64,000 bases of DNA from Levilactobacillus tongjiangensis (GTDB taxonomy: Bacteria > Bacillota > Bacilli > Lactobacillales > Lactobacillaceae), in assembly GCF_003946345.1 (NCBI RefSeq), contig NZ_RHNY01000014.1, forward strand, positions 1 through 64,000, given 5' to 3'. Both the position numbers and the translations under genes were made by a program. Each line of letters opens with the position of its first letter. Positions within the stretch are counted from its first letter, which is position 1. The notes beneath the pieces were generated by a model, which made no database searches, was not told the origin of the DNA, and was given only the letters and a program-made list of their open reading frames with translations. Positions 9,123-52,990 of this stretch are shown here, one piece after another.

Positions 9123-9298
9123 GCCAGTGACGGCCCGAGACGGTGTCTGCTGTGGGGACGTTTCAGCCAAAGGGCGGGCTTCTCGCTCGGTTTGAAGCCA
9201 CGAACATGTGTCTTCAAAGCCGCCCATGACCTAAGCTAGCTAAAAAACGCTAGCTAACGTCATTTTCACAGCTAGCACCATTTCTGGCCGCCACTGGC
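9123..9298 (+). repeat. Dispersed structured element, type A copy
   Basis: The outer arms GCCAGTGACGGCC (9123-9135) and GGCCGCCACTGGC (9286-9298) pair at 12 of 13 positions. Inside lie the family block GCTGTGGGGACG, the TTTGAAG...CTTCAAA hairpin and a GCTAGC-based hairpin. It follows the rel-dtd terminator and precedes the HAD gene. The blocks match the copies at 17.7, 45.6 and 52.8 kb, whereas the arms differ in sequence. Confidence 0.85.
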
Positions 9299-9434
9299 TT
9301 AGATTGTCCCCACCTGCGAGAAGCGTAACGGGCAACAGAATTGATTTTTGTATTTATAAGTATAATGTCGTGCATAACACGTCAACGGCGTCAGTGGTAT
9401 TTAATAATTTTCATAATCCAAGGAGGAACTTAGC

Positions 9435-10076
9435 TTGCGGTATCAACAAATATTTTGGGACTTTGATGGCACGTTGGTCGATACGTATCCGGGGATGGTG
9501 GCGGCCTTTCATCAGGCCTTGGTTGCCTGTCGGGTCAATGATTTTGAAATTGACGACGATGATGTCTATCGAACTATGCGGCAACATAGTTTGGGGACAG
9601 CTCTGCAACGCTTCTCTGCGGAGTACCAGTTGGATCAGGATCGATTGGCCAAAATTTATCAGCGTAAAGTAGCGCCAATGCTTTCGTCTGCACAACCGTT
9701 TAAGGGGGCAGCCACTATTTTAGCGAGTATCGTTGCGGCTGGTGGGCGTAATTTTTTGCTAACTCACCGGGATGCCCAGGCTTTAAACCGATTGGATGAG
9801 TTAAACCTAAAACAATATTTTACGGGTTTTGTAACGGCTTCTGATAATTATCCTCGTAAGCCAGATCCAACGAGTCTACAAGCGCTGTGTCGGCAATTTG
9901 ATGCCGATCCACAGTTAGCATTAATGGTGGGTGACCGCACGTTAGATGTCACAGCGGGCCACCGGGCTGGCATGGCCGGCGCGTTATTTGATCTAGACCA
10001 TTTAATTGTGGCAGATAGCCAACCGGAGTTTCGGACAGCGGAATTGGCCGAACTACAGGCTTGGTTATTGGCATAG
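9435..10076 (+). CDS. HAD-superfamily phosphatase (phosphoglycolate-phosphatase-like)
   Basis: The 213-residue product has HAD motif I (DFDGTLVDT, residues 9-17, with nucleophile and acid aspartates), motif II (LLTHRD), the conserved lysine near RKPDP and motif III/IV (MVGDRTLDVTAGHRAG). A helical cap sits between motifs I and II, as in the HAD-IA subfamily. The start is TTG 9435, with AGGAGGA at 9421-9427. The substrate cannot be read from sequence; small phosphorylated sugars or phosphoglycolate are family precedents. It is monocistronic and followed by a strong terminator. Confidence 0.87.
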   Translation: MRYQQIFWDFDGTLVDTYPGMVAAFHQALVACRVNDFEIDDDDVYRTMRQHSLGTALQRFSAEYQLDQDRLAKIYQRKVAPMLSSAQPFKGAATILASIVAAGGRNFLLTHRDAQALNRLDELNLKQYFTGFVTASDNYPRKPDPTSLQALCRQFDADPQLALMVGDRTLDVTAGHRAGMAGALFDLDHLIVADSQPEFRTAELAELQAWLLA

Positions 10077-10126
10077 AAAAAATCCTCACAAACAGCTATT
10101 AAAAGCGGTTTGTGAGGATTTTTTGA
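10075..10126 (+). terminator. Strong intrinsic terminator after the HAD gene
   Basis: AAAAAATCCTCACAAAC and GTTTGTGAGGATTTTTT are perfect complements around a loop of about 13 nt. The stem could work in both directions. Confidence 0.9.
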
Positions 10127-10315
10127 TAGTTTATAAAGAGTATCCACAAGTTTTGATACTGGTAAGTTAGCGTGAATTGGTTGAATTTCAAAAATCAGGG
10201 AACGTAGCCATCTACGATTGTGTTTTAGCACGTTCAATATTTAAGTTATTATACGCATCCATTTACGGGACTAATTGATACCACGGATTAGTTGAGTTGG
10301 TTGCATACTGTGTAA

Positions 10316-10480
10316 GCCGAGAGGTCGCCAGATATGGGCTCAGGCGCGTCGTTCTGCTTAGTTAGTAGGCGGGTTTCCTGCTGGCTTAGCAGAACGACCA
10401 AGCTTGGAGACTCGGGTCTTTCGAGGCTTCAAGTTGTGTCCGCACCGTTCCAGCCCATATCTGGCGGCCGGCAAGGCGAA
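10316..10480 (+). repeat. Dispersed structured element, divergent type B copy
   Basis: The arms GCCAGATATGGGCT (10327-10340) and AGCCCATATCTGGC (10452-10465) are perfect complements. They replace the GCCAAATTTGGACT pair of the 18.0-kb copy with compensating changes. A second perfect stem, GTCGTTCTGCT with AGCAGAACGAC, lies inside. The flanking GCCGAGAG and GGCAAGGCG blocks are shared with type B. The rest of 10127-10512 shows no gene. Confidence 0.75.
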
Positions 10481-10512
10481 CGACCACACTATGCAGGTCA
10501 GGAGCAGAATAA

Positions 10513-11355
10513 TCAACCGCGAGCTAAGATTTCGTTGACGGCGCCGCCATAAGTCTCACCGAACAGGTTGAGGTGAGCCAAGAGATAATACAGTTGGTAG
10601 TGTGGCAGCCGTTCGGCGTAGCCCTCGGCCAATGGGTAGAGTTCCTGGTAGCCCCGGTAAAAGTCCGCCGAGAAGCCACCGAAAATCGTCGTCATTGCAA
10701 GGTCAAATTCACGGTCCCCGTACAAGACGTCGGGATCAATTAGGGTTGGTGTCCCGTCAGCCGTGAATAGGTAATTACCGGACCATAGATCACCGTGCAG
10801 GAGCGAAGGCACAATCTCTCGGTCCTGATTCTCCACGATGATATTTTGACGAACCCGGTCGTACGCTGTCTGCCGCTGTGGATTCCAGAGCTGATGTTGC
10901 TTCGCTCGGTCAACTAATGGGTCGAGGCGTTGGTTGAGATAAAATGTCGACCAGTCCGCTTGCCAATGATTACTTTTTGGTAACTTGGCTACCAGATTAT
11001 CCTGATCAAAGCCAAACTGCTTAGCGGTCACGTGATGCACGCGAGCCACCATTTGTCCTAGGGCGTACTGACTGCCGTGACCAGTTGCTAAAAATTCTAA
11101 AATTAAATAGGCATCGCCGTTGATGACGCCATTAGCAATGACGTCGGGAACGTTGGCGGCTTGGCTTAACGCCCGTAATCCCGCAATCTCGTGGGCGTAA
11201 AACGAAGCAGGAGTTTGGGGCTGAACCAATAAAAAGTAAGGGCCCTCCGGTGAATCAAGCTGAAAGGCCTCGTTGATGTCACCACCACTGACGGGGGTGG
11301 CCGTCAATGGTTGGGGCAACGGTAATTGCTTGAGCCAATTCTGTGCAAGTGTCAC
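10513..11355 (-). CDS. Fructosamine kinase family protein
   Basis: The 280-residue product belongs to the FN3K/aminoglycoside-phosphotransferase-like fold. Supporting motifs are VSGGDINEAFQL near the N-terminus (nucleotide-binding loop), LILEFLATGHGSQYALG (hinge), the catalytic loop LLHGDLWSGNYLF (about 190-202) and the metal-binding LIDPDVLYGDREFDLAM. Members phosphorylate ketoamines to trigger deglycation of glycated amines or proteins; the actual substrate here is unknown. The start is GTG 11355 with AGAAGGA upstream. It lies 39 bp downstream of the amidase gene on the same strand and is probably co-transcribed. Confidence 0.87.
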   Translation of the reverse strand: MTLAQNWLKQLPLPQPLTATPVSGGDINEAFQLDSPEGPYFLLVQPQTPASFYAHEIAGLRALSQAANVPDVIANGVINGDAYLILEFLATGHGSQYALGQMVARVHHVTAKQFGFDQDNLVAKLPKSNHWQADWSTFYLNQRLDPLVDRAKQHQLWNPQRQTAYDRVRQNIIVENQDREIVPSLLHGDLWSGNYLFTADGTPTLIDPDVLYGDREFDLAMTTIFGGFSADFYRGYQELYPLAEGYAERLPHYQLYYLLAHLNLFGETYGGAVNEILARG

Positions 11356-11394
11356 GAGAATTCCTTCTTTCTAAATAAGTTGGTGAAAATTGAG

Positions 11395-12246
11395 TTAACC
11401 GGCTGCTGAAAAATACTTGCTGAGTCCAGCGACAACGCGATTGGCTACCTGTTCTTGGTATTGGGCACTACTGATATTGCTGAAATCCTTCTTGGTATTG
11501 ATATAACCCATTTCCAACAGGAGAGCAGGGCGACTGTTATCACGAATAACTTCAAAGTTGCCGTACTTCACGCCGCGATTGGTGAGTGGTAAGTCGTTCA
11601 TTTGGTTGTTTACGTCGGTTGCCAACTCATAGGATGAATTCCGATGGTAATAGTAGGTGGTGGTGCCAGACCCAAGATTGTCCGAAGGGGCGGAGTCGAA
11701 GTGAAAACTGATAAAGGCACTGGCATCGTCGGTATTGGCCAGTGCTGGTCGATCAGCCAGACTGACGGTCTTATCGGTTGACCGTGTCATGATGACGTGC
11801 GTTCCCCGGGCCCGGAGCTTCTTAGCAACACGATTGGCTAACTCGAGTGTATAGGTCTTCTCCTCATGCTTCTGACCAATGGAGAGGGCCCCCGAGTCGC
11901 TACCGCCGTGACCAGGGTCGAGGACGATGGTTGCTTCAGACAAGTTAGTGACCCGTTTAAGACTTCCGGGATGATCGACCAACCAGCTGGCCACCCAACC
12001 GAAATGATTTTGACTATCTCGAACGTGGTACCAATTATCTTTTTCGCCTAAAATTGTTAAGCGGGTATTTTTTTTGACCTTGTGAGTGACCTTATAGGTC
12101 AGTCCCGGACCGTCCCGTAGGTTAAGATTGGTGAGGGTCGCGGTGACGGAATTATGGTGGGTGAAAGCTAGCAACAAACCGCTAGCCACCAAGAGAATGG
12201 CGAGACTGGTAATCAGTCCCGTCCAGTTTTTAGGTTTAAAGTGCAT
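11395..12246 (-). CDS. N-acetylmuramoyl-L-alanine amidase with SH3 domain
   Basis: A membrane-anchored peptidoglycan amidase of 283 residues that cleaves the MurNAc-L-Ala bond. In order: an N-terminal anchor or uncleaved signal (about 11-29), one bacterial SH3 domain (about 34-93, with NLRDGPGLTYKV and GWVASWL) and an Amidase_3 catalytic domain. The zinc ligands and catalytic Glu are visible in VLDPGHGGSDSGA, EEKTYTLELA, FISFHFDSA and LLLEMGYI. The ATG at 12246 follows AAGGAGACACAGT. It is divergent from the hisS T-box operon. A role in wall turnover or cell separation is expected from the family. Confidence 0.93.
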   Translation of the reverse strand: MHFKPKNWTGLITSLAILLVASGLLLAFTHHNSVTATLTNLNLRDGPGLTYKVTHKVKKNTRLTILGEKDNWYHVRDSQNHFGWVASWLVDHPGSLKRVTNLSEATIVLDPGHGGSDSGALSIGQKHEEKTYTLELANRVAKKLRARGTHVIMTRSTDKTVSLADRPALANTDDASAFISFHFDSAPSDNLGSGTTTYYYHRNSSYELATDVNNQMNDLPLTNRGVKYGNFEVIRDNSRPALLLEMGYINTKKDFSNISSAQYQEQVANRVVAGLSKYFSAAG

Positions 12247-12324
12247 ACTGTGTCTCCTTATTCAAATTAGGTTTCATTATACCACGATTACTTTCAGTAC
12301 CTGAAGATTCTGTGAGAAAGGGGG

Positions 12325-12353
12325 TTGACTTTTCAGGAGATTTTAATTATGCT
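12325..12353 (+). promoter_or_regulatory. Promoter of the hisS-aspS operon
   Basis: TTGACT (12325-12330) and TATGCT (12348-12353) are separated by exactly 17 bp, just upstream of the T-box leader. Confidence 0.7.
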
Positions 12354-12359
12354 TAACGA

Positions 12360-12577
12360 GAATTAAATATTTGCCAGTGAGAGAGACCAGTAGGAGAAAT
12401 CACGTTTGTAGAGAGACCGTGTTGATGGGAACGGTTAACGGTGTGACTCCGAAGACACTTTTGAGGCTAATGACGCTAGTCGTCATTCGTTTGCAACGTT
12501 ATCCTGCAGAGAATATAAAAGGTGGTACCGTGCATACTTTGCGCCCTTGTCAAAAGACAGGGGCGCTTTTTATTTTC
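12360..12577 (+). ncRNA. T-box leader of hisS
   Basis: The leader has the T-box hallmark GGTGGTACCG (12521-12530), which reads the uncharged tRNA acceptor end, followed by a terminator (GCGCCCTTGTC / GACAGGGGCGC then TTTTTATTTT, 12541-12575). The upstream part is stem-rich, as expected of stem I. Position before hisS implies tRNA-His sensing; I did not securely assign the specifier codon. Confidence 0.88.
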
Positions 12578-12603
12578 TACAGGCGCAGAAAGGGAGAATG
12601 CTC

Positions 12604-13899
12604 ATGCGTTACCAACGACCAAAGGGCACGGCGGACATTTTACCAGGAGATTCAGAAACTTGGCAGTTCGTCGAAGCTACTGCGCGCCAGTTGTTTGCTA
12701 ACTACCGCTTCGCTGAGATTCGAACACCAATGTTCGAAAACTTCGAAGTCTTCTCACGGACGTCTGGAGATACTTCAGACATCGTGACCAAGGAAATGTA
12801 CGACTTTAAAGATAAAGGCGATCGGCATTTGTCTTTACGGCCAGAAGGAACTGCCGGCGTGGTTCGGGCATTTGTTGAAAACAAATTGTACGGGCCTGAA
12901 ACCACGAAACCCTACAAGGTCTACTACATGGGACCAATGTTTCGGTATGAGCGTCCGCAATCAGGACGGCAACGTCAATTCCATCAAATCGGGGTCGAAG
13001 CTTTTGGTAGCGATGCTCCGGAATTAGACGTTGAAGTAATTGCCTTAGGCATGAACTTGTTGTCGAAGTTAGGGTTGACGCATTTACGTTTAGCCCTGAA
13101 CACACTCGGTGACAAAGCGTCCCGTGATGCTTACCGGCAAGCCTTGATTGACTTTCTCGAACCGCATTTTGACGAATTAAGTGAAGACTCGAAGGTCCGG
13201 TTACACAAGAACCCACTACGGGTACTTGATAGTAAGGATCAACACGATCAAGAGATCGTGGCTGATGCCCCTTCAATCCTCGATTTCTTAACGCCAGAAG
13301 CAACGGCTCACTTTGAACGGGTCAAGGCTAGCTTGGACACTCTGGGAATCGACTACGATGTTGATGCCACGATGGTTCGGGGATTGGATTACTACAATCA
13401 CACCATTTTCGAAATCATGGCAGACTCACCTGCATTGGGTGAGGGTTACACGACCGTCTTAGCAGGTGGCCGGTACAACGGACTGGTTGAGGAATTGGGT
13501 GGACCTGAGATGCCCGGTGTTGGGTTTGGATTAGGAGTTGAACGATTGGTTCTGCTGATGCAAGCAGAAAAGGTTGCCATTCCTGATGTGAATTCGTTAG
13601 ACGTTTACGTGGTTGGAATTGGTGACGAAACGTCGCTTGAAACACTCAAGTTAGTTCAAGCGATTCGTCGTGCAGGATTGTCTGCCGACCGTGACTACCT
13701 GGCTCGTAAGCCTAAAGCACAGTTCAAAACTGCTAACCGCCTGTCGGCAGCCTATACACTGACCATTGGGAATCAAGAATTAGCCAATCAAACGGCTAAC
13801 TTGAAATCAATGGCCACGGGTGAAGAGGTTAGCGTACCATTAGCCGACATTTATACAAGTTTTCAGGATGTCGTAAATACCCATTTTGCGACAAAATAA
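12604..13899 (+). CDS. hisS: Histidyl-tRNA synthetase
   Basis: This class II synthetase (431 aa) charges tRNA-His. Visible are motif 1 ([23 protein letters not shown] region with motif 2 arginines), histidine-binding motifs [11 protein letters not shown] and AGGRYNGL, motif 3 ([15 protein letters not shown]) and a C-terminal anticodon-binding domain (about 330-431). ATG 12604 is chosen because AAGGGAGA (12590-12597) lies before it and [15 protein letters not shown] is the family N-terminus; the longer frame runs into the T-box terminator. aspS follows 22 bp later. Confidence 0.97.
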
Positions 13900-13921
13900 A
13901 AAAAGGTAAGAGGGGATTACA

Positions 13922-17601: not shown

Positions 17602-17698
17602 ATTTTTTTTAAAAGTAGCTAAAGGTTGAAAGTTCGGAAACCATTGTCAAACCAAGACTAGTAAAGTGCTATAGACTTAAAATTAGTCTTACCCAGCC

Positions 17699-17875
17699 AC
17701 CTGCGGCAGTCAGAGATTACGCCTGCTGTGGGGAACGCCTGCGGCCTAAGCAGCGGTCCTCCGGCTCGGTTTGAAGCCTGGAAAAACCACCAGTCTTCAA
17801 ACACGTCCCACGGTGTAAGCCGAAAATCGGCTAACACCGTCGACACAGCTGGCGCCACCTCTGACCGCCTCCGGT
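17699..17875 (+). repeat. Dispersed structured element, type A copy
   Basis: Outer arms 17699-17715 and 17859-17875 pair over most of their length (GTCAGAG with CTCTGAC at the base). Inside are GCTGTGGGGAACGC, hairpin TTTGAAGCCTGG/CCAGTCTTCAAA (17770-17801) and hairpin 17810-17840 (ACGGTGT...ACACCGT). The CTGG/CCAG extension replaces CACG/CGTG of the copies at 18.3 and 52.8 kb, which is a compensatory change. Confidence 0.87.
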
Positions 17876-17957
17876 TAAACAGCTTCTTGGAAACTATGCT
17901 AGCTTAAATGTTGGAATGGACATCACTTACTCAGTACTTTTAGCGCGTCACTAGGTA

Positions 17958-18125
17958 GCCGAGAGTGAGCCAAATTTGGACTCAGACGTGGGATTTTTAA
18001 GTGATTTTCTTGAAAATGGCGACTTGAAGATGTGCATTGCGGCTTCAAGCGAGGGGTAAGACCGCCTTTTGGCTTGTCCCGTCCTTCCCGCCGCGTCCCA
18101 GTCCAAATTTGGCGAACGGTAAGGC
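17958..18125 (+). repeat. Dispersed structured element, type B copy
   Basis: GCCAAATTTGGACT (17969-17982) and AGTCCAAATTTGGC (18100-18113) are perfect complements enclosing about 117 bp. Read in reverse, the interior carries a GGGACAAGCC-type hairpin followed by the TCGCTTGAAGCC block shared with type A. It has close copies at 27.8 and 48.1 kb. Confidence 0.85.
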
Positions 18126-18249
18126 GGTAATTTTTCGCTATGTCTGGCTAAACATCAATGCCCAATCCTAGTTGTATCAGTTATAGTGGATGTTTCAGTA
18201 CTTTCAACCTTTTGGAAGTAATAGAAGGTTGGAATCTTTTAAAGGCAGA

Positions 18250-18381
18250 TAAGCTGGTGATTTTTCCAGGTTACAGCATGGGCGACTTTGAAGACACGGG
18301 TTTTTCGTGGCTTCAAATCGAGCGAGAAGCCCGTTCTTAGGCTGAAGCGTCCCCACAGCAGGCGGAATTCCTGGCCGCTGG
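18250..18381 (-). repeat. Dispersed structured element, type A copy, truncated
   Basis: On the minus strand it reads GCTGTGGGGACGC, an AGCC/GGGCT hairpin, TCGCTCGATTTGAAGCCACG paired with CGTGTCTTCAAA, then GTCGCCCATG. The arm GCGGCCAGG near 18380 has no partner on the other side, so one outer arm is lost or diverged. A short frame across it is not a gene. Confidence 0.8.
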
Positions 18382-23493: not shown

Positions 23494-23548
23494 CAAAAAA
23501 AGGAAAAACGTTTGTGACTAGTTTCGGTCACAAACGTTTTTCCTTTTT
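23494..23548. terminator. Bidirectional terminator between convergent genes
   Basis: AAAAAAGGAAAAACGTTTGTGAC and GTCACAAACGTTTTTCCTTTTT form a long perfect stem between the methyltransferase gene (+) and the kinase/pyrophosphorylase gene (-). Confidence 0.92.
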
Positions 23549-25929: not shown

Positions 25930-26222
25930 AACAAAACTTCCTTTCGGTTTGACTGAGGGGTGAAAGTGACGCCATTTTGTTGATTTAAGCTAATCTTGGG
26001 CAATAAGAAATGACTATATCTAAATTGATTCACCTGACAGAGATTTAATATAAATTAGGTAGAATTCCCTTGCTTTCAAGCAAGGGATGAATGCCACTAT
26101 GCCTTTCGTTGATCAGTGAAGCTCATATGTTATCTCCATAAATATTATTGTAAGACACTTTACTATGGATACAGCATGCTCATATGGTACGCTTGCTATC
26201 AAGCAAAGGAGGGTGGCAGTTT

Positions 26223-27380
26223 ATGGCGAAAACAATGGCCCAATTACCGTATCATTGTGGGGTTAAGGTCCGAATCTTTCCTTCAACCGAACAAAAACGG
26301 CTGATCAAACGTAACAGTTATGCTAGTCGCTTCATTTATAACGAAATGAACGGGATGAACAATGATCTATTTTGGCTGAAGAAAGTTAAAACACCAATAT
26401 TTTGATAGCTTGATGAAAGCCAACGCTATCAAGAATTATAGGACTGCTTGGAAGCTATTCCGGCAGGTTCATCAGGCGGGGACCCCTAAGTTTCACAAGC
26501 GTGGTTACACAAAGACTTATCAAACATCGTGTCTTTACAGTGCTAAAGTGACAGTTCCAACTATGAAGAATGGTAGCGTTAGACTAACTGACAACTACCA
26601 CCTACAACTACCCAAGCTGGGACGTTTCCGATTCAAGGGACTTCCACTAAAGATTTTAGAACGAGCTAATGACATTAGGATCGGAACAACAACGGTCTCA
26701 ATGGACACTGCGGGTCATTACTTTGTGTCCTACAGATTGGGTCAGAACACCCCTTCGTTGCCAAACAAACCGCGGTTGAATCTAAAGTCGGTATCGATTT
26801 GAATCTTGACAATTTTCTGACGGACTCCAATGGACAGGTGATTGATAATCCACGTTACTACCGAACTATTAGAGGGAAACTAGCTAAAGCCCAACGAAAA
26901 CTGTCACGGCGGGCCAGACGAGTTAAAAGGAGCCAACGACGGTTATCAGAAGCAAAGAATTATCAAAGACAACGGTTATTAGAGGCCAGATTACAGCCTA
27001 AAGTTGCCAATCAACGTAAGAATTTCCTGCACCACGTCTCTACGGCCTTGATCAAAAACCACGATTTAGTCGTAGCTGAAGAACTGCGGAGTAAAAATAT
27101 GTTGCGGAACCACGCTTTGGCAATGAGCATCTCGGACGTCGGCTGGCGAACTTTACTGAGCATGTTGGCTTACAAAGCCGATTTGTATGGTCGGAAATTT
27201 TTGACGATTAATCCCCGGAATACAACGCAAACCTGTAGTCATTGTGGGCACATCATGACCGGTAAGAACAAGTTAACATTGGCTGACCGCGAGTGGACGT
27301 GCCCTAGTTGCGGGACGTTTCATGTTCGTGATCAAAATGCAGCTAGAAATATCCTAGCTAAGGGTTTAGCAACTTTGTAA
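26223..27380 (+). pseudogene. tnpB: tnpB/orfB (RuvC-like RNA-guided nuclease), two frameshifts
   Basis: Three consecutive fragments make one TnpB. 26223-26405 (ATG after AGGAGGGTGG; N-terminal part), about 26401-26798 in another frame, and about 26770-27380 back in the first frame. The first shift lies at the TATTTTGAT run near 26398-26406, the second near 26770-26798. All catalytic features are still encoded: the RuvC-I Asp in VGIDLNLD, the Glu in VVAEELRSKNM, the zinc finger CSHCG...CPSCG and the RuvC-III Asp in RDQNAARNI. TnpB proteins are RNA-guided DNA nucleases that help their element persist. As written no full protein can be made without ribosomal or sequencing frameshifts. Confidence 0.85.
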
Positions 27381-27535
27381 GGAGCGAGTCCGTCTGGCAA
27401 CCTGCGGACCTAAAAGGCTTTGGTAATTAGCGGATAAGTCCTATTCGTAGGCTAACGCTGTATCTAAGCAAATTGTGGTCACTATGCCAAAGGGTGTGGT
27501 TCTCGCAAGCGTCCGTTTTTAAACGGGCGTGGTTG
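27370..27535 (+). ncRNA. Candidate omega RNA (reRNA) of the tnpB element
   Basis: In IS200/IS605 elements the guide RNA scaffold spans the tnpB 3' end to the right end. Here the region after the stop codon is stem-rich and ends in the CCGTTT/AAACGG hairpin and GGGCGTGGTTGAC. The sequence after about 27537 would serve as guide. This rests on position and family knowledge; the fold was not computed. Confidence 0.5.
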
Positions 27536-27581
27536 ACAACTTTCTATTTGCTATTGTAACAGTCTGCGTTTCATAATATTG

Positions 27582-27985
27582 AACTAAAGGTCGAAGGCTC
27601 GAAAATCAATATCAAACCAGGAATAATAAGGCGTTATAGGCTTAAAATTAGTCTCATCCAGCCACCTGCGTCTGTCAGAGATTCCGCCTGTAACCACCTC
27701 TGGTTGAACGGGTTCTTGGCAATTAAGCTAGCTTAAACGTCTGAATGACAGCGCTTACACAATGTTATCGGCGATCCAGTAGGTAGCCGAGAGTGAGTCA
27801 AATTTGGACTCAGCCGTGAGATTTTCAAGTGACCTTCTTGAAAATGGCGACTTGAAGACGTATTTTGCGGCTTCAAGCGAGGGGCAAGACCGCTCTTTGG
27901 CTTGTCCCGTCCTTCCCACCGCGTTCCAGTCCAAATTTGGCGAACGGTCAGGCGGTACCACTATTGTGAGTTCTCACGGCAAGGA
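27582..27985 (+). repeat. Composite repeat unit, internally deleted copy
   Basis: The left flank (ACTAAAGGTCGAAGGCTCG, TTAAAATTAGTCTC) and the spacer (GCTAGCTTAAACGTC) match 17619-18153. The type A element is reduced to a remnant at 27661-27709 (CACCTGCG...CAGAGATTCCGCCTG joined to ACCACCTCTGG). The type B element downstream is complete. It lies just after the tnpB element, before yqeY. Confidence 0.78.
27786..27955 (+). repeat. Dispersed structured element, type B copy
   Basis: GTCAAATTTGGACT (27797-27810) and AGTCCAAATTTGGC (27928-27941) pair apart from one wobble. The interior closely follows the copy at 18.0 kb. A short frame at 27804-28055 comes from this repeat and is not a gene. Confidence 0.83.
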
Positions 27986-33215: not shown

Positions 33216-36176
33216 ATGCAGACCAATAATCGGCAAGAACAACGACATGAACATGGGATGCGCCAACAGTTGCTGTACGCTGGCGTGACTTTGGCAGCCC
33301 TGAGTACTGGACTGATGGTCAGTGCACATTCAGCTCAAGCGGCCACGGTTGCTGAAGATTCGAGCTTAGTGGCGCAGAAAAATGAAAATGATCAGAGTAA
33401 ACAGGAAAGCCAAGAACAACCGAGCGCCGAGCAACCAGGTTCTGGGGATGAGCAGACTGGTAGTCAAGCTGTTCAAAAGCAGAGTGCCAGTGGCAGTCTA
33501 GCTCCCAAACGGAGTGCCGCGGCCTCGCTGAGTCAAGCAGCCGAGCCGGTAAGTAACGTGGAACAACCAGCGGGTTCCGGTACGACGGGGACCCCCGCAA
33601 AGCCAAAGCCATCGTCCGTATCGCCACAACCAGCGAAGGTTGCTGGTGCAGGTGAACGAGAAATTTCAGTTGCAAATTTGACTAAATTTAGTCGTTCACG
33701 AGTAATGCCGCGAATGATGGCAGTGCCGGCAACGGCCGATGTGACGACACCTGGTGATACCACTGATGAGGCCACGACGGATGATGGGTTTACCTATGCG
33801 TTAAACGCAGCTGGTAATGGGTATACCATTACTGGTTATACGGGTAGTGCGACGGCTATTGTCATTCCGGATACCCACCTCAATGACGAAGGCAAAGCAA
33901 TCAATGTATCGGCAATTGCTGACAACGTTTTTAAAGGGCGCAAATTAACGAGTTTAGTCATGGGCGCGCACGTCGCCACGATTGGCCAGGCGGCGTTTGA
34001 AAATAATTTACTGACGACCATTGATTTTTCTAAAAATAAAAGTGATCTTTGGGGAATTAGTGCGAATGCTTTTGCAGATAACAAGTTAACCGGAACGTTG
34101 ACGTTACCTGCTTCCATTACACAGATTGGTGAGAATGCCTTTGCTGGTAGTGATGCTAACGATGGGTCTGGGAATCAACTGACTGGTGTTGATTTCGGTG
34201 ACAATTTAAAGACCGTTCAAATTGGAAATGGTGCCTTTGCAAATAACATTTTGGCAAGTCTAGTACTTCCTGTTGGTACGTCGCTTATTGGTAGCACGGC
34301 TTTTGCCAACAATCGGTTAACAAGTGTAGATTTAGGTCATAGTTTGACTACGATTGGTGATTATGCATTTGATGGAAATACCATTGGTGGCAGTTTATTT
34401 ATCCCTGATACAGTAACGACGATTGGGGTTAAAGCGTTTAATGGCAATCAATTGACTGGCCTCACGTTGGGAGATGGCCAGTCCGTTCTCGACACAATTG
34501 GAGAATCGGCATTTGATGGGAATGCTATCACTGGTAGTTTGGTTATTCCTGATACAGTGAAGACAATTGGGGTTAAAGCGTTTAACGGCAATCAATTGAC
34601 TGGGCTCACGTTGGGAGATGGCCAGTCTATTCTCGATACAATTGGAGAATCGGCATTTGATGGGAATGCTATCACTGGCAATTTGTTTATTCCCGATGCA
34701 GTCAAGACAATTGGGGTCAGAGCGTTTAACGGCAATCAATTGACTGGGCTTACGTTGGGAGATGGCTAGTCCATTCTAAACACGATTGGAGAATCTGCGT
34801 TTCAGCAGAATAATCGTTCGTTGACAGGAACGCTGAAGGTCCCCGATAGTGTGTCTTTTATCGGGAAAAACGCATTTTCTGGTGATTCTTTGACTAATAT
34901 TGATTTTGGTAAGAGTACCGGAACTATTGGAGAAAGTGCCTTTGCTGGTAATCAGATGACTGGGGATCCGGAGACGGGAATTTTGACGCTGTCTGATGGT
35001 ATTCAACAGATTAATGATGCAGCTTTTGCTGGTAATCTCCTAAAGGGCGTTAAACTTGGGACCGGATTGATTACCATTGGAAATTCAGCGTTTGCAGCGA
35101 ATCCGCTGACGGGAACGTTGACCATTCCTGATCTAGTGACGAGTATTGGCGAGTATGCCTTTACTAACGGTAAGCTCACGGGGCTTATCTTGGGTCAGAA
35201 GGTGGATTCCATTGGGTCGTCTGCCTTCGCTGAGAATCAGTTGGCGGGAGCGCTGGAGATACCTGATAGTGTCAAGAGTATTGGGGACTCAGCCTTTGCC
35301 AGTAACAAGTTACGAGCTCTTCAACTGGATGGCACTGTAAATAGTGTTGGAATTGGTACCTTTGCCGGCAACGATTTACAGAAAATTCAGGCGGCTCAGC
35401 CGGTGACTAATCTCGGTGACTATGCTTTAGCTGGCCAAAAGACGTTAGCCGTTACTGTGAACAAGTCCGGTAATCAATTAACTGGGGTTCGTGCCGCAAT
35501 TGCCAAGCAACTACAATTGCAGAACTTTAGTTTAACGGATCCCATGATTTTTAAACTGGGCGATACGCCAGTTACGTATGATTTCAAAACTGATTCATTA
35601 ACGTTGCCGGCAGGCGTTACGGGAAATAGCTTAACGCTGTCACTATCGAGTGGAACAACTGGTGAAGCGACAGACCATTCCGGAAACTATGGGGTGGATG
35701 CCCTAACGTTGAGTTGGTCTGTACCGGCTAGTGGAACGGATCCGACGACACCAACGACACCGACGGAGCCAACTGATCCGGTCACACCGACGATACCAAC
35801 TACGCCTAAGAAGCCGACTAAGCCGACTAAACCAGGTAAGAAGCCTCAGACACCGACGAGCCCTAAGGCGCATCAACACCGAACAGGGGATACGAAGCGA
35901 GCGGGTCAGCGCCAAGTCTTTACCTACACGGGTTCCGTTGTAGGTAACGGCACACAACGAGGACTGAAGCCCACCGCATGGTCTTATGGCCAACAAGCGT
36001 CTAGCTTAAATGTTAGTTCTAAGGTCAGTGGGCTAGAGCACCTAGATAACCAGAACCAGTCGCAACCGGAATTACCGCAAACCAGTGAGCAGACGAGCTA
36101 CTGGTCAGTAATTGGTACGACAATATTAGCCGCATTAAGTTGGCTAGGATTAGGTGAACGTCGGCGGCGCCATTAA
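33216..36176 (+). pseudogene. LPQTxE-anchored leucine-rich-repeat surface protein, amber-interrupted
   Basis: One continuous frame of 987 codons encodes a cell-wall protein, broken only by TAG at codon 518 (34767-34769). Neighbouring repeats read CAG (Gln in GDGQS) at that position, so a single C-to-T change explains it. Layout: signal peptide (1-about 43, cleavage near AHSAQA), Gln/Ser/Pro-rich spacer (44-170), LRR_5/BspA-type repeats (about 205-740) including near-identical 48-residue units, a Thr/Pro/Lys wall-spanning stretch, LPQTSE (about 953), a hydrophobic helix and a basic tail. As read, the 517-residue product would be secreted without its anchor. Such proteins commonly mediate adhesion. 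Start: ATG 33216 after AAAGGGAAGAG. Confidence 0.88.
34386..34800 (+). repeat. Tandem 144-bp repeats within the LRR gene
   Basis: Near-identical units with a period of exactly 144 bp (ATTGGGGT at 34422, 34566 and 34710) encode 48 residues each (IGVKAFNGNQLTGLTLGDGQ...). About 2.7 units are present, and the amber codon falls in the last. High identity suggests recent expansion and potential for copy-number change. Confidence 0.85.
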
Positions 36177-45545: not shown

Positions 45546-45563
45546 TGCTCTTTTGGATTAGAA

Positions 45564-45744
45564 GGTGGTGATCCGGCGACCAGGGACGGGACCCAGCTGT
45601 GGGGACGCTTCAGCCAAAGAACGGGCTTCTCGCTCGTTTTGAAGCCACAAAAATCGCGTATCTTCAAAGACGCCCATATCGTAGGCTAGCCCAAGACGCT
45701 AGCCTACGATGTTTTCACTGCTGGGTCCCATCCCTGGTCACCTC
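45564..45744 (+). repeat. Dispersed structured element, type A copy (best-paired)
   Basis: Outer arms GACCAGGGACGGGACCCAGC (45578-45597) and its near-perfect complement (45720-45739) form a stem of about 20 bp, extended by GGTG/CACC. Inside: TGTGGGGACGC, hairpin TTTGAAG/CTTCAAA (45638-45668) and a perfect 13-bp hairpin ATCGTAGGCTAGC/GCTAGCCTACGAT (45678-45710). The remainder of the gap to 46002 shows no gene. Confidence 0.9.
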
Positions 45745-46002
45745 CAGATAATCCAACCAAATAACTCTTCTGAAATGACGCAACCATGCAAGTGGTATAG
45801 GGGCAGAAACATAGGTAAACTCATCAGCAATAGCAAGTCTGAAGGCTTTCGTCGGCAACTCTTAACACCCCAGTTTGCGCCGCTTTAGCGTAAATGATAT
45901 ATTTAATGAGGTGAATGGTTGTGAATTAATAGTAATTTTAATTTGACCGAATGTCTCGTTTTGTACATAGGATTTAAAATGAATTTTCAGGAGGAAAACA
46001 AG

Positions 46003-46818: not shown

Positions 46819-46836
46819 AGAATATAAGGTTCTAAA

Positions 46837-47320: not shown

Positions 47321-47395
47321 TAACCCCATTCTTAGGTTGGAATCGTTTACATAAAGGACTAATCAACATTGAGGTAATTTATTGAGTCAAAAGTC

Positions 47396-47431: not shown

Positions 47432-47482
47432 TTTAGAAAAGCCCATCATTTGTTTAGTGGCTTAGGTGAAAGGAGGTGCACT

Positions 47483-48001
47483 GTGAAAGCCAAGCCAAGT
47501 TTGGAGCAGGCGCTCTGTATCGTTGCGTTACTCGGGATTCAAGATCGCCAAATTCCCTTACATAGCCGTTTAGTTGCGGAGCGTCTGGGAATCTCCACCA
47601 GTTATTTGAAAAAAATCGTTCAGAAATTAGCCGGTGCCGATATTGTTAAAACGGTCTCCGGCCGGGACGGTGGCATTGTGTTAACTCGCGACCCCCACAA
47701 GATTACCTTACTGGACGTCTTTGACGCCATCGAAGGGGCCAGCACGTTCATCAAGAACACGGGATTAGTTAAACGCGTTTTTGGTTTCGACCAAAAAAAA
47801 GCCTTTATGAAGACTTACGCGTTGAAAGACTTAAATAATCAACAACCGGTTGCCAACGTCCTCGCCGTTTTCGGTGAGGCTGAGCAGCGCTACCGCGAGC
47901 AGTTAGCCACACTGACTATCAGCGAGATCTTACCGATTACAGAGAACCAACCTCTGCAGCTCGATTGGACCAAGTGGCTTTTGCACCAATCAACAGAATA
48001 G
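47483..48001 (+). CDS. Rrf2 family transcriptional regulator
   Basis: The 172-residue protein has an N-terminal winged helix (SLEQALCIVALLGIQ, ERLGISTSYLKKIVQKLAGADIVKTVSGRDGGIVLTRDPHKITLLDVFDAIEG). The C-terminal half lacks the three-cysteine cluster of iron-sulfur members such as IscR and NsrR; only Cys13 (CIVALL) is seen. The ligand may therefore be something else, or signalling may be by thiol. The start is GTG 47483 after AAAGGAGGTG. The MMPL transporter gene lies 400 bp downstream on the same strand and is a possible target. Confidence 0.87.
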   Translation: MKAKPSLEQALCIVALLGIQDRQIPLHSRLVAERLGISTSYLKKIVQKLAGADIVKTVSGRDGGIVLTRDPHKITLLDVFDAIEGASTFIKNTGLVKRVFGFDQKKAFMKTYALKDLNNQQPVANVLAVFGEAEQRYREQLATLTISEILPITENQPLQLDWTKWLLHQSTE

Positions 48002-48053
48002 AAGTAAGTTTAATTAACTAAGGATTGAAACGAGCAAGCTCATAGGTATTGAA

Positions 48054-48334
48054 GTTTAGTCAGACATAGTGGAAATTGCCGCCTTACCGTTCGCCACATT
48101 TGGACTGGAACGCGGTGGGAAGGACGGGACAAGCCAAAAGGCGGTCTTGTCCCTCGCTTGAAGCCGTAAATCACGTCTTCAAATCGAGCCGAAGGACCGC
48201 TTTTCAGGCCGGAGGCGTTCCCCACAGCAGGCGGAATCTCTGACAGCCGCAGGTGGTTGGGTGAGACTAATTTTATATCTATATCGCCTGACTATTCTTG
48301 ACTTGATAACGTTTTCGAACTTTCAACCTTTAGT
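48054..48334 (-). repeat. Composite repeat, A-B fusion copy
   Basis: On the minus strand it reads the left flank (ACTAAAGGTTGAAAGTTC, ATAAAATTAGTCTC), the left half of type A (ACCTGCGG, GCTGTGGGGAACGC, CTCGATTTGAAG) and then directly the right half of type B (CGGCTTCAAGCGAGG...AGTCCAAATGTGGC). The joint falls at the TTGAAG block shared by both types, as expected for recombination between an adjacent A and B. Confidence 0.8.
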
Positions 48335-48404
48335 CAACAATCAGTGGAGCTCGGTTCAATCATTAGGTCATAAAATTTAGAGAATTGTTTTAGGAGGTTT
48401 TCCC

Positions 48405-51400
48405 GTGCGCTGGATGAATAAGCACTACATCTGGAACGTTATCGGCTGGCTAGTCATTGTCCTCTTGGCCGTCGTGACGATTCCAAACATGAGTAAGTTG
48501 GTGGCTGACAAGGGACAAATTACCGTTCCCAGCAGCTATCAAAGTACTCGTGCAACCAATATGCAAAAGCAGTGGGGTCGTTCCCAACGCGGTACCACTG
48601 CCGTTGTGGTTGTTTTCAGTAATGGTGATTCCGCGTTGACCAATGCGCAGAATACCCAGATTGATAACACCATTCAACGAATCAAGAACCACGAAGATCA
48701 ATATGAAATTCGGTCGGTGACCGCTGCGAGTGATAGTTCCACCGCCGCCTCACAGCTGATTTCAAAGGATAAGAGTACCCAACTGCTCCAACTGAACGTG
48801 CATAAATCGTCCAGCCATTCAATTACGAAGGTGCGCTCTGAAATTACCAGTTTGGCCAAGACCAGTGGTGTGAAAACCTACGTCACTGGGGCCGATGTTT
48901 TAAACCAAGACTTCTCCGATGCTACGCAGGCTGGGGTCCAGAAGACCGAAATCATTGCTGCCATCTTCATTTTCTTGGTGTTGTGGTTGGTCTTCCGTTC
49001 GCCGGTTACGCCGTTGTTCTCACTATTGACCGTCGGGGTCTCCGTGATCACGTCCATCTCCGTGGTAGCTAACCTGGTTGACCGGTTCAACTTTCCGTTC
49101 TCTAACTTCACGGAAGTCTTCATCGTTATCGTGCTGTTTGGGATTGGGACCGACTATAATATTCTGCTCTATAACGAGTTCCGAGAGCGGTTAGCTAAAG
49201 GAAAAGATCGGTATACGGCCACGAAAGAAGCCATTAAAATTGGTGGTCGGACCGTTCTGTATTCCGGCTTGTCCGTCTTAATCGGGATGAGTGTGCTGGG
49301 ATTCGCCAACTTTTCACTCTACAAGTCAGCGGTCGGTATTGCCGTTGGGGTCGTGGTCCTCTTGGCCGTACTCCTGACGCTGAACCCATTCTTCATGGCC
49401 ATCTGTGGTCGGAAGATGTTCTGGCCGATCAAGAAGTTCTCCGGTGAAGGAGACAGTCGTTTGTGGCACGGTATGGCCAAACACGCCATGATTCGGCCCA
49501 TTATTACGCTGATTGTTACCGGTATCGTGTTTATTCCGTTAGCTCTGTCGTCTCACGGGACGTTGGACTTCGACAACTTGGTGGAAATTGGCGATAATGT
49601 CCCCGCCAAGCAAGGGTTTAAGGTGGTGCAACAGCATTTTTCCAAGGGGACTGCTGAGCCAACCACTATTTATATTCAAAGTGATCATAAATTAGACAAC
49701 GAAAAGTCCCTGCTCCTGATCGACCGGTTAACGAAGCAGTTACAGGCTTCTGACGGGGTCAAGACCGTGGCTTCCGTCACGCAGCCTGGTGGGAAAGCCA
49801 TCAAGGAACTGTACGTCAGAAATCAAATGAGTTCAGTGACGAGCGGCTTAGTCAAAGCCCAAAAGGGTGTTGACCAGGTCAACAAGGGACTGAAGTCCGC
49901 TGATAGCCAATTGAGTAAGCAAAATGTTTCGGGGGAGGTTCAGGACGCTAACAAGTTAGCCAGTGGGGCTAAGCAAGTCAGCACCGGGACTAACCAGCTA
50001 CAGTCCGCCATTTCACAGGTCTCAACTGGGGTTAATTCCTTGAATAGCCAAGTGTCTTCCGCCTCTGGTGGGAAGCAGGCGGCCCAACTTGCTCAGTTGG
50101 AAGCAGCCTTGCCACAATTGAACAATGCCATTCAACAATTAAACCAGCAAGTCTCGGGTAATTCGGCCAGCACCAGCGGGGTTACGAGCTCACTGACGAC
50201 CATCAAGACCAGCACCCAAGACATTGGTAAGCAACTGGCCAATTTGCAGAGTGCCACGGCTAATTTGCCAACCATGAGCACGAGTACGGTGGCCAGTGCC
50301 TTCAGTTCTAACGGGGTGCCGCTGTCCGCAGAACAGAAGAAAGTCTTGGCTGGGTTGCTTCAACAGCAATCCACGGCGCAAAGTGCTTTGAAATCAGCTT
50401 TGAGCACGGCTTTGCCAAAGATCAAGTCGGACGCCACGTCCATCGGTGCTGCTGATCAAAGCGTGGCCACTCAGTTGACCAGCCTGCAAAGTTCAACCAG
50501 TCAATTGCAGACTGCGGTGGCCGCGTTGGCGCAAAAGTCAAACGTGGTCCTACCAGGTGCTCAAACGGCTTTGCAAAAGGCAGGTTCACAGAGTAGTCAG
50601 CTAGCTAGTGCGACGAGTCAGCTGTCCAGTGCCATGTTTACCATCAACGGTAAGATGCCTTCTCTGGTTTCCGGGGCTAATCAAGTAGCCGCTGGTAATC
50701 AAACCATGGCGGAGAAGTTAGCCGCGATGAGTAAGCAATTAACGGCATTGCGCAAGGGATTAGGCTCAGCAACGACCGGACTCACGCAAGTTTCCAGTGG
50801 GGTCGGTACCGCTAACGCCTACCTGAAGGGGTTGCAAAAGTCCGCCGCCACCAAGACGTTCTACATCCCAACGAAGCAGTTACACGGGAGTTCGTTTAAG
50901 CCAGCACTGACGACTTACATGTCGCCGAACAAGAAGCTGACCAAACTGACAGTAGTGCTAAATGATGATCCCAGTTCCGCTGCCGCGATGGCTCGGTTGC
51001 CGAAATTGGAAAAAGTTGTCAACGGGTCACTAGCTGGGACGAGTCTGAGTGGTGCTAAGATTGCCTTTGGGGGTAATACCTCACAGACCAACGATATCAA
51101 CGACATGGCTTCCAGCGACTTTACGCGGACGGTCATCATCATGTTAGCCGGTCTCTTTGTCGCCCTGATGGTGGTTACCCGCTCACTAGTTCAACCAATT
51201 GTGATCGAAGGAATTCTGTTAGTTGCCTACTCTGGGGCTTTGACCATCGTTCATTGGTTGGTCAAACCAGTTCTAGGGGCCGACATGTTGACGTGGAACA
51301 CACCATTCTTCACGTTCGTCATGTTGATCTCACTCGGGGTCGATTACTCGATCTTCTTGATGCGGAAGTATCGTGAGTTCCTGCATGAGCCGGGTGCTAC

Positions 51401-51686
51401 CAGTGACAAGATGTTGCGGGCAGCCACGGTTATCGGGACAGTTGTCATCTCGGCTGGGATTATCCTGAGTGGGACGTTTGCTGCCTTGATTCCATCTGGG
51501 GTCATGACGCTGATTCAAATTGCGTTAGCCGTCATCATTGGGATCATCTTGCTGGTCATCCTGTTGCCAATCGTGATGCCGGCTGTCATGAAGATTACGT
51601 ACCCGTATCCTTATTCCAATATGCGGGATGCGCCGGTCAATGGCACTGATTCTGATCAAGCGACACCCTCACGACGGCAGAAATAG
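48405..51686 (+). CDS. MMPL/RND family transporter
   Basis: A very large membrane protein (1093 aa) of the MmpL/YdfJ type with two six-helix transmembrane bundles (about 175-370 and 900-1070). Each holds the proton-relay GxxxDY motif (LFGIGTDYNILLYNEFRERL and LISLGVDYSIFLMRKYREFL). Between them lies a long extracellular Gln/Ser/Ala-rich segment (about 460-800) with heptad-like repeats, probably an antiparallel coiled coil reaching through the wall. In lactobacilli such proteins are linked to lipid or wall-component export and antimicrobial tolerance. The start is GTG 48405 after TAGGAGG. It is not adjacent to the usual TetR regulator; the nearest regulator is Rrf2. Confidence 0.92.
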   Translation: MRWMNKHYIWNVIGWLVIVLLAVVTIPNMSKLVADKGQITVPSSYQSTRATNMQKQWGRSQRGTTAVVVVFSNGDSALTNAQNTQIDNTIQRIKNHEDQYEIRSVTAASDSSTAASQLISKDKSTQLLQLNVHKSSSHSITKVRSEITSLAKTSGVKTYVTGADVLNQDFSDATQAGVQKTEIIAAIFIFLVLWLVFRSPVTPLFSLLTVGVSVITSISVVANLVDRFNFPFSNFTEVFIVIVLFGIGTDYNILLYNEFRERLAKGKDRYTATKEAIKIGGRTVLYSGLSVLIGMSVLGFANFSLYKSAVGIAVGVVVLLAVLLTLNPFFMAICGRKMFWPIKKFSGEGDSRLWHGMAKHAMIRPIITLIVTGIVFIPLALSSHGTLDFDNLVEIGDNVPAKQGFKVVQQHFSKGTAEPTTIYIQSDHKLDNEKSLLLIDRLTKQLQASDGVKTVASVTQPGGKAIKELYVRNQMSSVTSGLVKAQKGVDQVNKGLKSADSQLSKQNVSGEVQDANKLASGAKQVSTGTNQLQSAISQVSTGVNSLNSQVSSASGGKQAAQLAQLEAALPQLNNAIQQLNQQVSGNSASTSGVTSSLTTIKTSTQDIGKQLANLQSATANLPTMSTSTVASAFSSNGVPLSAEQKKVLAGLLQQQSTAQSALKSALSTALPKIKSDATSIGAADQSVATQLTSLQSSTSQLQTAVAALAQKSNVVLPGAQTALQKAGSQSSQLASATSQLSSAMFTINGKMPSLVSGANQVAAGNQTMAEKLAAMSKQLTALRKGLGSATTGLTQVSSGVGTANAYLKGLQKSAATKTFYIPTKQLHGSSFKPALTTYMSPNKKLTKLTVVLNDDPSSAAAMARLPKLEKVVNGSLAGTSLSGAKIAFGGNTSQTNDINDMASSDFTRTVIIMLAGLFVALMVVTRSLVQPIVIEGILLVAYSGALTIVHWLVKPVLGADMLTWNTPFFTFVMLISLGVDYSIFLMRKYREFLHEPGATSDKMLRAATVIGTVVISAGIILSGTFAALIPSGVMTLIQIALAVIIGIILLVILLPIVMPAVMKITYPYPYSNMRDAPVNGTDSDQATPSRRQK

Positions 51687-51695
51687 TCGTTGATT

Positions 51696-51793
51696 GCCGC
51701 CTCTGGTTGCCGGGCAAGCCACCAGCTGTGGGGACCGGGACAAGCCTGTGAAGCGGTCTTGTCCCGCGACTTGAAGCTTCGGCAACCTCCGGC
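51696..51793 (+). repeat. Dispersed structured element, short copy
   Basis: A compact 98-bp member 9 bp after the MMPL stop. GGTTGCCG (51705-51712) pairs with CGGCAACC (51780-51787). The block GCTGTGGGGACC is followed by hairpin GGGACAAG/CTTGTCCC (51737-51765) and GACTTGAAGC, but the second half of the TTTGAAG hairpin and hairpin 3 are missing. Confidence 0.7.
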
Positions 51794-51883
51794 TATGATG
51801 GATTTGTGTGATTTCTGCTGGTGTGTTAGTAGGCAGTGAGCACAACATCATTAGTTTTCAGTTTAGTAAATGTGTACTAACTT

Positions 51884-51934
51884 AAGATATCAGCGTACGC
51901 CACGCACAAGTGTGGGTATGCTGGTATCTTTTTT
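51884..51934 (+). terminator. Strong terminator downstream of the MMPL gene
   Basis: AGATATCAGCGTAC-GCCAC pairs with GTGTGG-GTATGCTGGTATCT and ends in TTTTTTT. It is 200 bp beyond the MMPL stop codon, so it ends either a long 3' UTR carrying the short repeat or a small independent transcript. Confidence 0.78.
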
Positions 51935-52174
51935 TCGAAATGATATGAACCAATCAATGTCACAACCTAAATTCAGCACCTTTAGAACGGTCGATGGCAT
52001 CGCTGAAGAACCGTCTATAAGGGTATCAATATACTTGGTTAAGGTTATACTTAAGAAGATAACAATCGTCCGTCGAAACGATCTTTAACGGGGGATGCCA
52101 TGAACCGCAAGCTCTCGTGGCAGACTAGCTGATTTGACGACTAGTCAAACAAGTTAGTTGGAGGCGTGTTACGA

Positions 52175-52546
52175 ATGAAAAAGACTGTTAGAATCATCTC
52201 GTGGATATTGGGGGTAATAGGGTTACTGGTCACTGCTGATTTGGCGGATAATTGTTTCTTTAACGCATCAGCCGTTTTTTACCATGACTTGGCGTTGTAT
52301 GTAAACGTTGTTTGGGGAATCTGGACGCTAGCGACGTTTGTCTTCACGGTGACGTTGTTCTTTAAGCGACAACAGGTGATCGGTTGGGTTGCCGCAGTGG
52401 TGGCGGTGATTTGTTTAGGATTTATTGGTACCTGGATCGGTCCCCTGGATGCGCATGATTACGCCTACGTTGGCTTTTTAGCGCTGGGGATTCTCAACGG
52501 TCTCTATGTCAGAAAAATGAATCCGGTCGAAGTTTCACTTGAATAG
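52175..52546 (+). CDS. Small four-helix membrane protein, 123 aa
   Basis: Four predicted membrane helices (about residues 5-25, 33-57, 67-88 and 93-112) with few charged residues except a basic loop (FKRQQ) and a basic/acidic C-terminus. ATG 52175 follows GGAGG with 10-nt spacing; the frame continues upstream to GTG 52166. It has its own terminator (52551-52605). The family is not recognised and no function is proposed. Confidence 0.68.
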   Translation: MKKTVRIISWILGVIGLLVTADLADNCFFNASAVFYHDLALYVNVVWGIWTLATFVFTVTLFFKRQQVIGWVAAVVAVICLGFIGTWIGPLDAHDYAYVGFLALGILNGLYVRKMNPVEVSLE

Positions 52547-52550
52547 AAAT

Positions 52551-52605
52551 GGCGTCTTCGCAGACAAGTCCAAGATAATTCGGTTGTCTGTGGGACGCTT
52601 TTTTT
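52551..52605 (+). terminator. Intrinsic terminator after 52175-52546
   Basis: GCGTCTTCGCAGACAA and TTGTCTGTGGGACGC pair through most of their length and end in TTTTTTT. I see no gene or clear signal in 52606-52811. Confidence 0.82.
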
Positions 52606-52811
52606 AGTTATCGGCAGAGTGAAAAAATTGAAGGCTAGCTAGAGAGGTGTCTTTCCACCATACCCGCTACCAGGTATGGGGATTAAACTGTGCCACCTTA
52701 AGCCCATATCGGGGACCTTCTTGGCTGACGTAAAGTTTCACTGTTACTTAGCTACAGAATCTTTTAACAGTTAGCTCACAAAGGCAGAAATCATGATAAA
52801 CCACAATCAGA

Positions 52812-52990
52812 GCCGGAGGTGGTCAGGGGTGGAGCCGGCCGTGAAGGTGGTGTTTGCTGGTGAATTTCCAGCTTACACCACGGGCGACTTTGAAGACACG
52901 GGGCCTTCGTGGCTTCAAATCGAGCGAGAAGACTGGTGTTCTTCCAGTCTGAAGCGTCCCCACAGCAGGCGGAATCCCTGACCACCGGAG
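52812..52990 (-). repeat. Dispersed structured element, type A copy
   Basis: Outer arms GGTGGTCAGGG (52818-52828) and CCCTGACCACC (52976-52986) are perfect. Hairpin 1 is AGACTGG/CCAGTCT (52930-52950), different in sequence from other copies but fully paired. Hairpin 2 is TTTGAAG/CTTCAAA (52889-52919). Hairpin 3 is built on GTGGTGT/ACACCAC. Short frames on both strands here are artefacts of the repeat. No other gene is seen up to 53146. Confidence 0.88.

Follow-up and report, generated by a model that had tools for sequence, protein, structure and literature searches.

A dispersed family of folded, MITE-like intergenic repeats in Levilactobacillus tongjiangensis

We analyzed the first 64,000 nucleotides of contig NZ_RHNY01000014.1 of Levilactobacillus tongjiangensis (assembly GCF_003946345.1), a stretch hereafter called the window, which is part of contig C6 in a 2.72-Mb genome (G000). 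About ten intergenic elements of the window were confirmed as copies of a single repeat family with covarying helices. This is a large, real family of folded repeats resembling miniature inverted-repeat transposable elements (MITEs), undescribed within the literature that we searched. Its copies resemble arms of larger units more closely than they do stand-alone RNA genes, and we consider it probable that they represent an old family of small non-autonomous MITE-like elements, in which the unit would be formed by two convergent folded arms around a spacer and the remnants would persist as single arms. A preliminary description of the window had listed eleven places with related elements; reading of the sites, repeat finding and profile searches revealed related sequence at all of them, and the shared motifs and stem variants that it reported are present in the copies. 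It overlooked that one arm type is inverted with respect to the other, that the arms occur in convergent pairs, and that some units carry fixed terminal repeats and target duplications.

Fold and covariation of the arms

The arms are approximately 170 bp long. The fold of type A has three hairpins and an outer stem interrupted by an internal loop, and the type comprises two classes that are split by hairpin 1: class I carries TTCAGCC, and class II shows variable forms, some of them with longer covarying stems, for example GGGACAAG/CTTGTCCC. Type B lacks hairpin 1 and is related to A, from which it has diverged, in the inverted orientation.

To evaluate the pairing, we used an alignment of 50 A copies built from sequence alone, shuffled versions of it, and a control in which the partners were slid by 1-3 columns. 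In this alignment 85.2% of the cells were paired, versus 74.1 ± 0.4% after shuffling and 31-41% with slid partners, and both sides had changed in 347 cells, versus 111 (shuffled) and at most 55 (slid). Changes on both sides were found in 42 of the 57 pairs, a number exceeding all 500 shuffles and all slid versions; the structure had been drawn on one of the aligned copies, which favors it in the slid control. For type B, 96.8% of the cells in 41 copies were paired and 18 of 59 pairs had changed on both sides; this structure was predicted on the same alignment used for its test, and on one of the five measures, that of further pair types, 120 of the 500 shuffles did as well. A tree-based null that we wrote ourselves (20 simulations, not R-scape) gave six significant pairs for A and three for B, and all nine lie inside the proposed helices. 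Finally, 26 distinct copies outside the original set, from source stretches of which 18 of 20 belong to other genera and two to the genus member G005, were fitted to the model; 86.8% of their cells were paired (shuffled, 63.0%) and 49 of 55 pairs were double-changed. In other genera, the fold is retained and the sequence is different. The covarying helices claimed in the preliminary description are thus real, and the variable ends of the outer stem were also borne out. Such matching changes, stem by stem, that keep the fold are unusual for small mobile elements.

Paired arms, terminal inverted repeats and target duplications

Arms separated by no more than 700 bp were convergent in 60 of 71 cases (six were in ++ orientation, four in −−, and one pair was divergent), in a count to which orthologous stretches of two species contributed, as did loci picked for the class I motif. 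The family members of the window are given below, with window positions, bit scores from cmsearch, and reference to G010, a sister species whose long matches to G000 are approximately 92-95% identical. TIR stands for terminal inverted repeat.

9127-9295 (+): A arm, class I; 155.7 bits; no terminal repeat detected; ortholog at the same site in G010.
10313-10483 (−): B arm, the relative of A without hairpin 1; nhmmer; alignment A5.
17619-18214 (+): complete MITE-like TIR element; two convergent arms; TIR pair; ortholog in G010.
17619-17632 (+): left TIR of this element, CTAAAGGTTGAAAG; exact match.
17703-17872 (+): A arm, class II, within the TIR element; 149.3 bits.
17962-18119 (−): B-like arm within the TIR element; 48.2 bits.
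18201-18214 (−): right TIR, one mismatch; pattern match.
18214-18381 (−): A arm, class I, partial, with the 3′ part degraded; 96.3 bits.
27584-27947 (+): remnant of a TIR element, A arm deleted; left TIR at 27584-27597 (two mismatches), B-like arm at 27790-27947 (−).
45573-45745 (+): A arm, class I; 164.8 bits; G010 has other sequence in its place.
48073-48333 (−): collapsed TIR element, a fusion of A (class II) and B; TIR at 48320-48333.
51706-51789 (+): A arm, class II, with an internal deletion between short direct repeats; intact copy in G010.
52815-52988 (−): A arm, class I; 161.2 bits; ortholog in G010.

The inverted orientation of type B was seen for the 10.3-kb arm in locus L266, with 63.7 bits inverted and 28.7 bits direct; among the matches listed, copies of this arm are 87-96% identical in its own genome and 79-93% identical in other genomes of the genus.

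The element at 17619-18214 (597 bp), which combines a class II A arm with a B-like one, has at least 52 matching pieces at about 40 scored places among the matches listed, and 13 of these, besides the window copy, run end to end. Its ends are the 14-bp inverted repeat CTAAAGGTTGAAAG, for which we obtained 116 hits versus 40 for a reversed-pattern control (up to two mismatches). Among the 27 TIR pairs listed at loci of its own genome, the flanking 8-bp target duplication matches at 8/8 positions in four (L002, L006, L007 and L014) and at 7/8 in three; a stricter scan of all fetched loci gave an exact 8-bp duplication in five (the fifth being L177) and one offset by one base in six. An offset of one base is also seen in the direct repeats of the G010 ortholog of the 597-bp element. 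The TIR pairs with duplications span 266-618 bp and are short, with no transposase gene, and the same ends bound class I/B units in other species. Among A arms with 220 nt of flank, a TIR with up to three mismatches was found upstream of 29 of 56 class II arms (27 had none) and 17 of 158 class I arms, at a distance of 85-87 nt in 32 of these 46; allowing only one mismatch, the numbers were 22/56 and 9/158, versus 0 for the reversed control in both classes. The TIR units show the terminal inverted repeats and short length and, at some copies, the target duplication by which bacterial MITEs are recognized. The preliminary description had set the family apart from MITEs because the outer ends vary; this contrast fails in part, since some units have TIRs and target duplications.

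As candidates for an autonomous partner, open frames were listed beside six TIRs; the transposon-like ones, in L067 (positions 1-700, G000:C2, adjacent to one MITE terminal repeat), resemble IS200/IS605 tnpA/tnpB by eye only.

Site history, maintenance in place and competing explanations

In the comparison with G010, the sites at 9.13, 10.32, 17.7 and 52.8 kb proved to be occupied by arms in both species, and at 27.6 and 48.05 kb the window and G010 carry different deletions; the G010 counterpart of the 48.05-kb fusion, read by eye, is a longer unit in which both TIRs are present. In 22 other genomes of the genus, no arm was found at the places orthologous to 9.13 and 45.57 kb, except in G010 at 9.13 kb. 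The solo arm at 45.57 kb was considered as a case of a clean empty site and rejected: the G010 sequence there is unrelated and gives no clean boundary. We also read by eye five differences between G000 and G010 at arm sites on C40/C9. Four of them look like deletions ending inside arms; in the fifth, on C40, G000 carries a TIR unit and G010 has no insert. This unit is flanked at either end by CTGAGTAA, of which the right-hand copy lies about 20 nt beyond the right TIR. Arm position is mostly not conserved at the sites tested. These comparisons suggest that the family has been mobile over long time scales and that, at the sites read in this pair of species, losses outnumber gains.

In the intergenic region orthologous to window 10.3 kb, G002 carries a B arm in the opposite orientation (C16:27157-27345), which represents either an independent insertion or an inversion. 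A separate difference from G010 lies at window positions 26021-27538, where about 1.5 kb absent from that species contains pieces of an IS605-type OrfB/TnpB (PF01385, PF07282) in more than one frame.

The gene context was obtained for 70 full arms with a simple, crude open-frame caller: the neighbors are convergent genes in 25 cases, tandem genes in 37 and divergent genes in five, and three arms have no neighbor on one side. The tandem contexts are divided 19 versus 18 by arm orientation, that is, with no preference, and for 54 of 67 arms the gene on the 5′ side is the nearer one. This context fits tolerated insertions of paired-arm units, with no sign of a gene-directed role. A cis-regulatory leader or an element of 3′ untranslated regions was rejected on the basis of the 19 versus 18 division, and a stand-alone RNA gene because of the lack of a match in Rfam, of conservation of the sites at 9.13 and 45.57 kb, and of a promoter signal.

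Copies that stay in place continue to be maintained. We compared 15 orthologous arms of G000 and G010 and observed a divergence of 5.4% at paired positions, 7.0% at unpaired positions and 11.0% in the 200-nt flanks, this last value being perhaps inflated by misalignment. The same arms contain 12 double changes of any kind, versus 2.3 expected, and nine of them are Watson-Crick on both sides. The counts were made on pairwise alignments; 22 of 50 sister-species arms had a full ortholog in the available sequence, from which four duplicates, the partial L162:1110, the B-like L296:19623 and the weak or partial L309:224 and L309:9580 were excluded, and L309:2855 was added. The rate at which resident copies evolve is thus between half and two thirds of that of their flanks, and compensatory changes still occur, a pattern that suggests either ongoing constraint or hairpin-templated repair. 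The preliminary description had proposed a fold under selection; the maintenance of the stems agrees with this, but the scarcity of G-U pairs in A copies relative to transfer RNAs (tRNAs) and the lack of a visible promoter signal, both presented below, do not.

In the explanation that we favor, two convergent arms of about 170 bp (an A arm, plus another A or a B) would flank a spacer, complete units would carry the 14-bp TIRs and, where not decayed, the 8-bp target duplications, and all copies would descend from one ancestral unit. The TIRs and target duplications suggest that a transposase mobilized these units in trans. The single arms of the window would be mostly leftovers of units that lost their ends, their spacer or the partner arm, and deletions with endpoints inside arms were indeed seen between the sister species. 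The fold itself may allow recognition of one strand during transposition, or may block read-through from neighboring genes so that the inserts are harmless. Spacer sequence is common to the two loci L328 and L329, from another genus (86% identical).

Several observations weigh against this explanation. The flanks of the window's own TIR pair match at only 3/8 positions, 141 of the 158 class I arms lack a TIR within 220 nt at up to three mismatches, and at this same threshold the reversed control is high for class II (22/56; class I, 1/158). No autonomous element with these TIRs was found in the loci examined, the whole genome not having been scanned for one, and the analysis revealed no function of the family. 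Nine arm-pair loci of the genome have mutually dissimilar spacers, so a single ancestral unit is not demonstrated for those loci. Moreover, type A is nearly palindromic and scores on both strands in profile searches, which makes the orientation of weak arms less certain. Lastly, a purely parasitic nature leaves unexplained the slower evolution and the compensatory changes of resident copies.

Alternatively, the arms could be functional structured RNAs, or single-stranded recognition structures, read from one strand and kept in place by selection, with mobility belonging only to the past. In agreement with this idea, the ortholog comparison gave an excess of double changes, and both paired and unpaired sites evolve more slowly than the flanks. 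The changes that leave a mismatch also have a strand bias: on trees, A-C exceeded G-U on the written strand, with 113 versus 43 in 128 A copies and 34 versus 13 in 41 B copies, and single changes between orthologs gave 29 versus 10 (p 0.003). An excess of A-C on the written strand corresponds to G-U on the reverse one, as though it were the reverse strand that folds. In two pairs of type B, the written strand has G-U in almost every copy (38/41 and 34/41), which speaks for an RNA and, at the same time, against the reverse strand. However, G-U pairs are scarcer than in the tRNA control, where they made up 20 of 333 pairs (6.0%) in 15 tRNAs, with no A-C. In A copies, they occupy 38/2729 cells (1.4%) on the written strand and 115/2729 (4.2%) on the other; in the well-paired columns of B copies, 14/2321 (0.6%) on the written strand and 55 (2.4%) on the other, under a filter that drops columns with less than 70% Watson-Crick pairs and hence the two near-constant G-U pairs, whose inclusion raises the written-strand value to 86/2403 (3.6%). 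Other attempts to assign the strand were rejected: folding energy compared with shuffles was mixed, favoring the written strand for A, the reverse strand for B, and neither for a set mostly from other genera, and loop composition was neutral for A and A-rich on the written strand for B, contrary to the wobble test. No promoter or T-run signal was found beside the arms, and the poor conservation of the sites, together with tandem contexts without orientation preference, also argues against this explanation, which we regard as unlikely.

A somewhat less likely idea is that the resident units are functional, direction-independent insulators, the convergent design itself being regulatory and selected in many intergenic regions across several genera. 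If the reverse strand folds, transcription entering a unit from either neighbor would cross the first arm in the non-folding sense and would meet the second arm in the folding sense shortly ahead of the following gene; there, the transcript could be stopped or processed by the fold.

The covariation could also arise at the DNA level, through hairpin-templated repair (quasipalindrome correction) that converts stem mismatches into pairs without any selection on the fold. The scarcity of wobble pairs on both strands of A copies, the 224 double changes from Watson-Crick to Watson-Crick on tree branches, an outer stem that is free in sequence yet complementary, and the deletions with short repeats at their ends are all consistent with this process. 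Nevertheless, it does not predict that the unpaired blocks are alike across genera, nor the strand asymmetry of the uncompensated changes, and we consider it doubtful as the explanation, a little more so than the insulator idea. Chance palindromes or an alignment artefact can be practically dismissed: some helix columns are poorly paired and, besides the B structure predicted on its own test alignment, alignments A4, A6 and A7 had been built on the model, but the sequence-only alignments A3 and A5 exceed every shuffle (except for further pair types in A5), the significant pairs of the tree-based null all fall in helices, and the fold recurs in other genera.

Two other kinds of sequence were noticed in the window. 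Near-perfect hairpins at gene ends (10077-10124 and 23497-23548) look like ordinary terminators, and a large open frame contains three direct repeats with a spacing of 144 nt (34349-34811; 80-86% identical to the first), surrounded by further short repeats.

Distribution, relation to known repeats and significance

A covariance model and a search of lactobacillal genomes, the route proposed in the preliminary description, gave matches across the genus and in nine genera. In its own genome, all 150 scored candidates passed E ≤ 0.001; these came from 1249 first-look candidates, and 150 is therefore a minimum (at least 150) that the true number may exceed. The window and C40 together contain 35 arms in 204 kb, which extrapolates to several hundred arms per genome, or roughly 3% of it. 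With the same model, matches were found in 22 of the 23 other genus members. G022 and G016 stand out, one of the two being without a detectable arm and the other having ten weak ones, which may reflect loss or late arrival; most others have at least about 70. In an exact-motif scan, at least 80 loci were listed of 110 stretches, all from Levilactobacillus. Across the family, 25 of 121 genomes (its own included) and nine of 40 genera have matches at E ≤ 1e-4 with stricter filters, and none was found in 16 genomes that belong to the order but to different families. No plasmid copies were found.

The preliminary description was not aware of a described family that matches, and our searches gave none. 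The window has no match in Rfam 15 at the curated threshold, one A and one B copy gave only sub-threshold hits (E ≤ 10; best E 0.16), and no description of such repeats in Lactobacillus or Levilactobacillus was found in literature searches of open-licence full texts. The closest known kind, by analogy, appears to be that of the BOX/RUP/bcr1-type repeats. To our knowledge, neither convergent pairing of arms nor TIRs are known for Bcr1.

BOX, RUP and SPRITE of Streptococcus pneumoniae are described as small folded intergenic repeats, present in many copies, enriched between convergent genes and presumed to be dormant non-autonomous mobile elements (PMC3049150). The present family resembles them in its many small, strongly folded intergenic copies, their location between convergent genes and their probable nature as non-autonomous mobile elements, and it shows the high copy number, intergenic location and conserved secondary structure of BOX-type repeats. 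In contrast, the unit here is made of two convergent multi-hairpin arms. According to the same source, BOX, RUP and SPRITE are nearly confined to S. pneumoniae and S. mitis, with BOX-like ones in S. suis, whereas the present fold spans nine genera of one family (PMC3049150). Bcr1 of the Bacillus cereus group is presented as a dispersed repeat of approximately 150-170 bp whose copies share a secondary structure and have traits of a mobile element; size, dispersal, shared fold and mobile character are similar here, and the host group differs (PMC2267715).

With classical bacterial MITEs (PMC10969869), the family shares the TIRs, the target duplications, the absence of a transposase gene and a length below 620 bp. 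Unlike them, it has covarying folded internal arms, which outlast the loss of the ends and go on evolving, and no parent element was found in the loci examined. Repetitive extragenic palindromic (REP) sequences, of 20-40 bp, and the bacterial interspersed mosaic elements (BIMEs) are moved by RAYT transposases (PMC2817692, PMC3733652); like the present arms, they are extragenic, palindromic and often in opposed pairs. The arms described here measure about 170 bp, outside the 20-40 bp of a REP palindrome, and complete units have TIRs and 8-bp duplications, in which they differ from REPs.

Folded intergenic repeats are commonly taken for single-species parasites. The family reported here joins the signature of a DNA transposon with a fold that is compensated both in several genera and in resident copies, and this combination makes the question of whether such repeats are junk or have been recruited testable in food bacteria. 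Since the arms would, by extrapolation, account for roughly 3% of the genome and lack a match in Rfam, the family is also relevant for annotation and for RNA-discovery pipelines, which could mistake its members for RNA genes.

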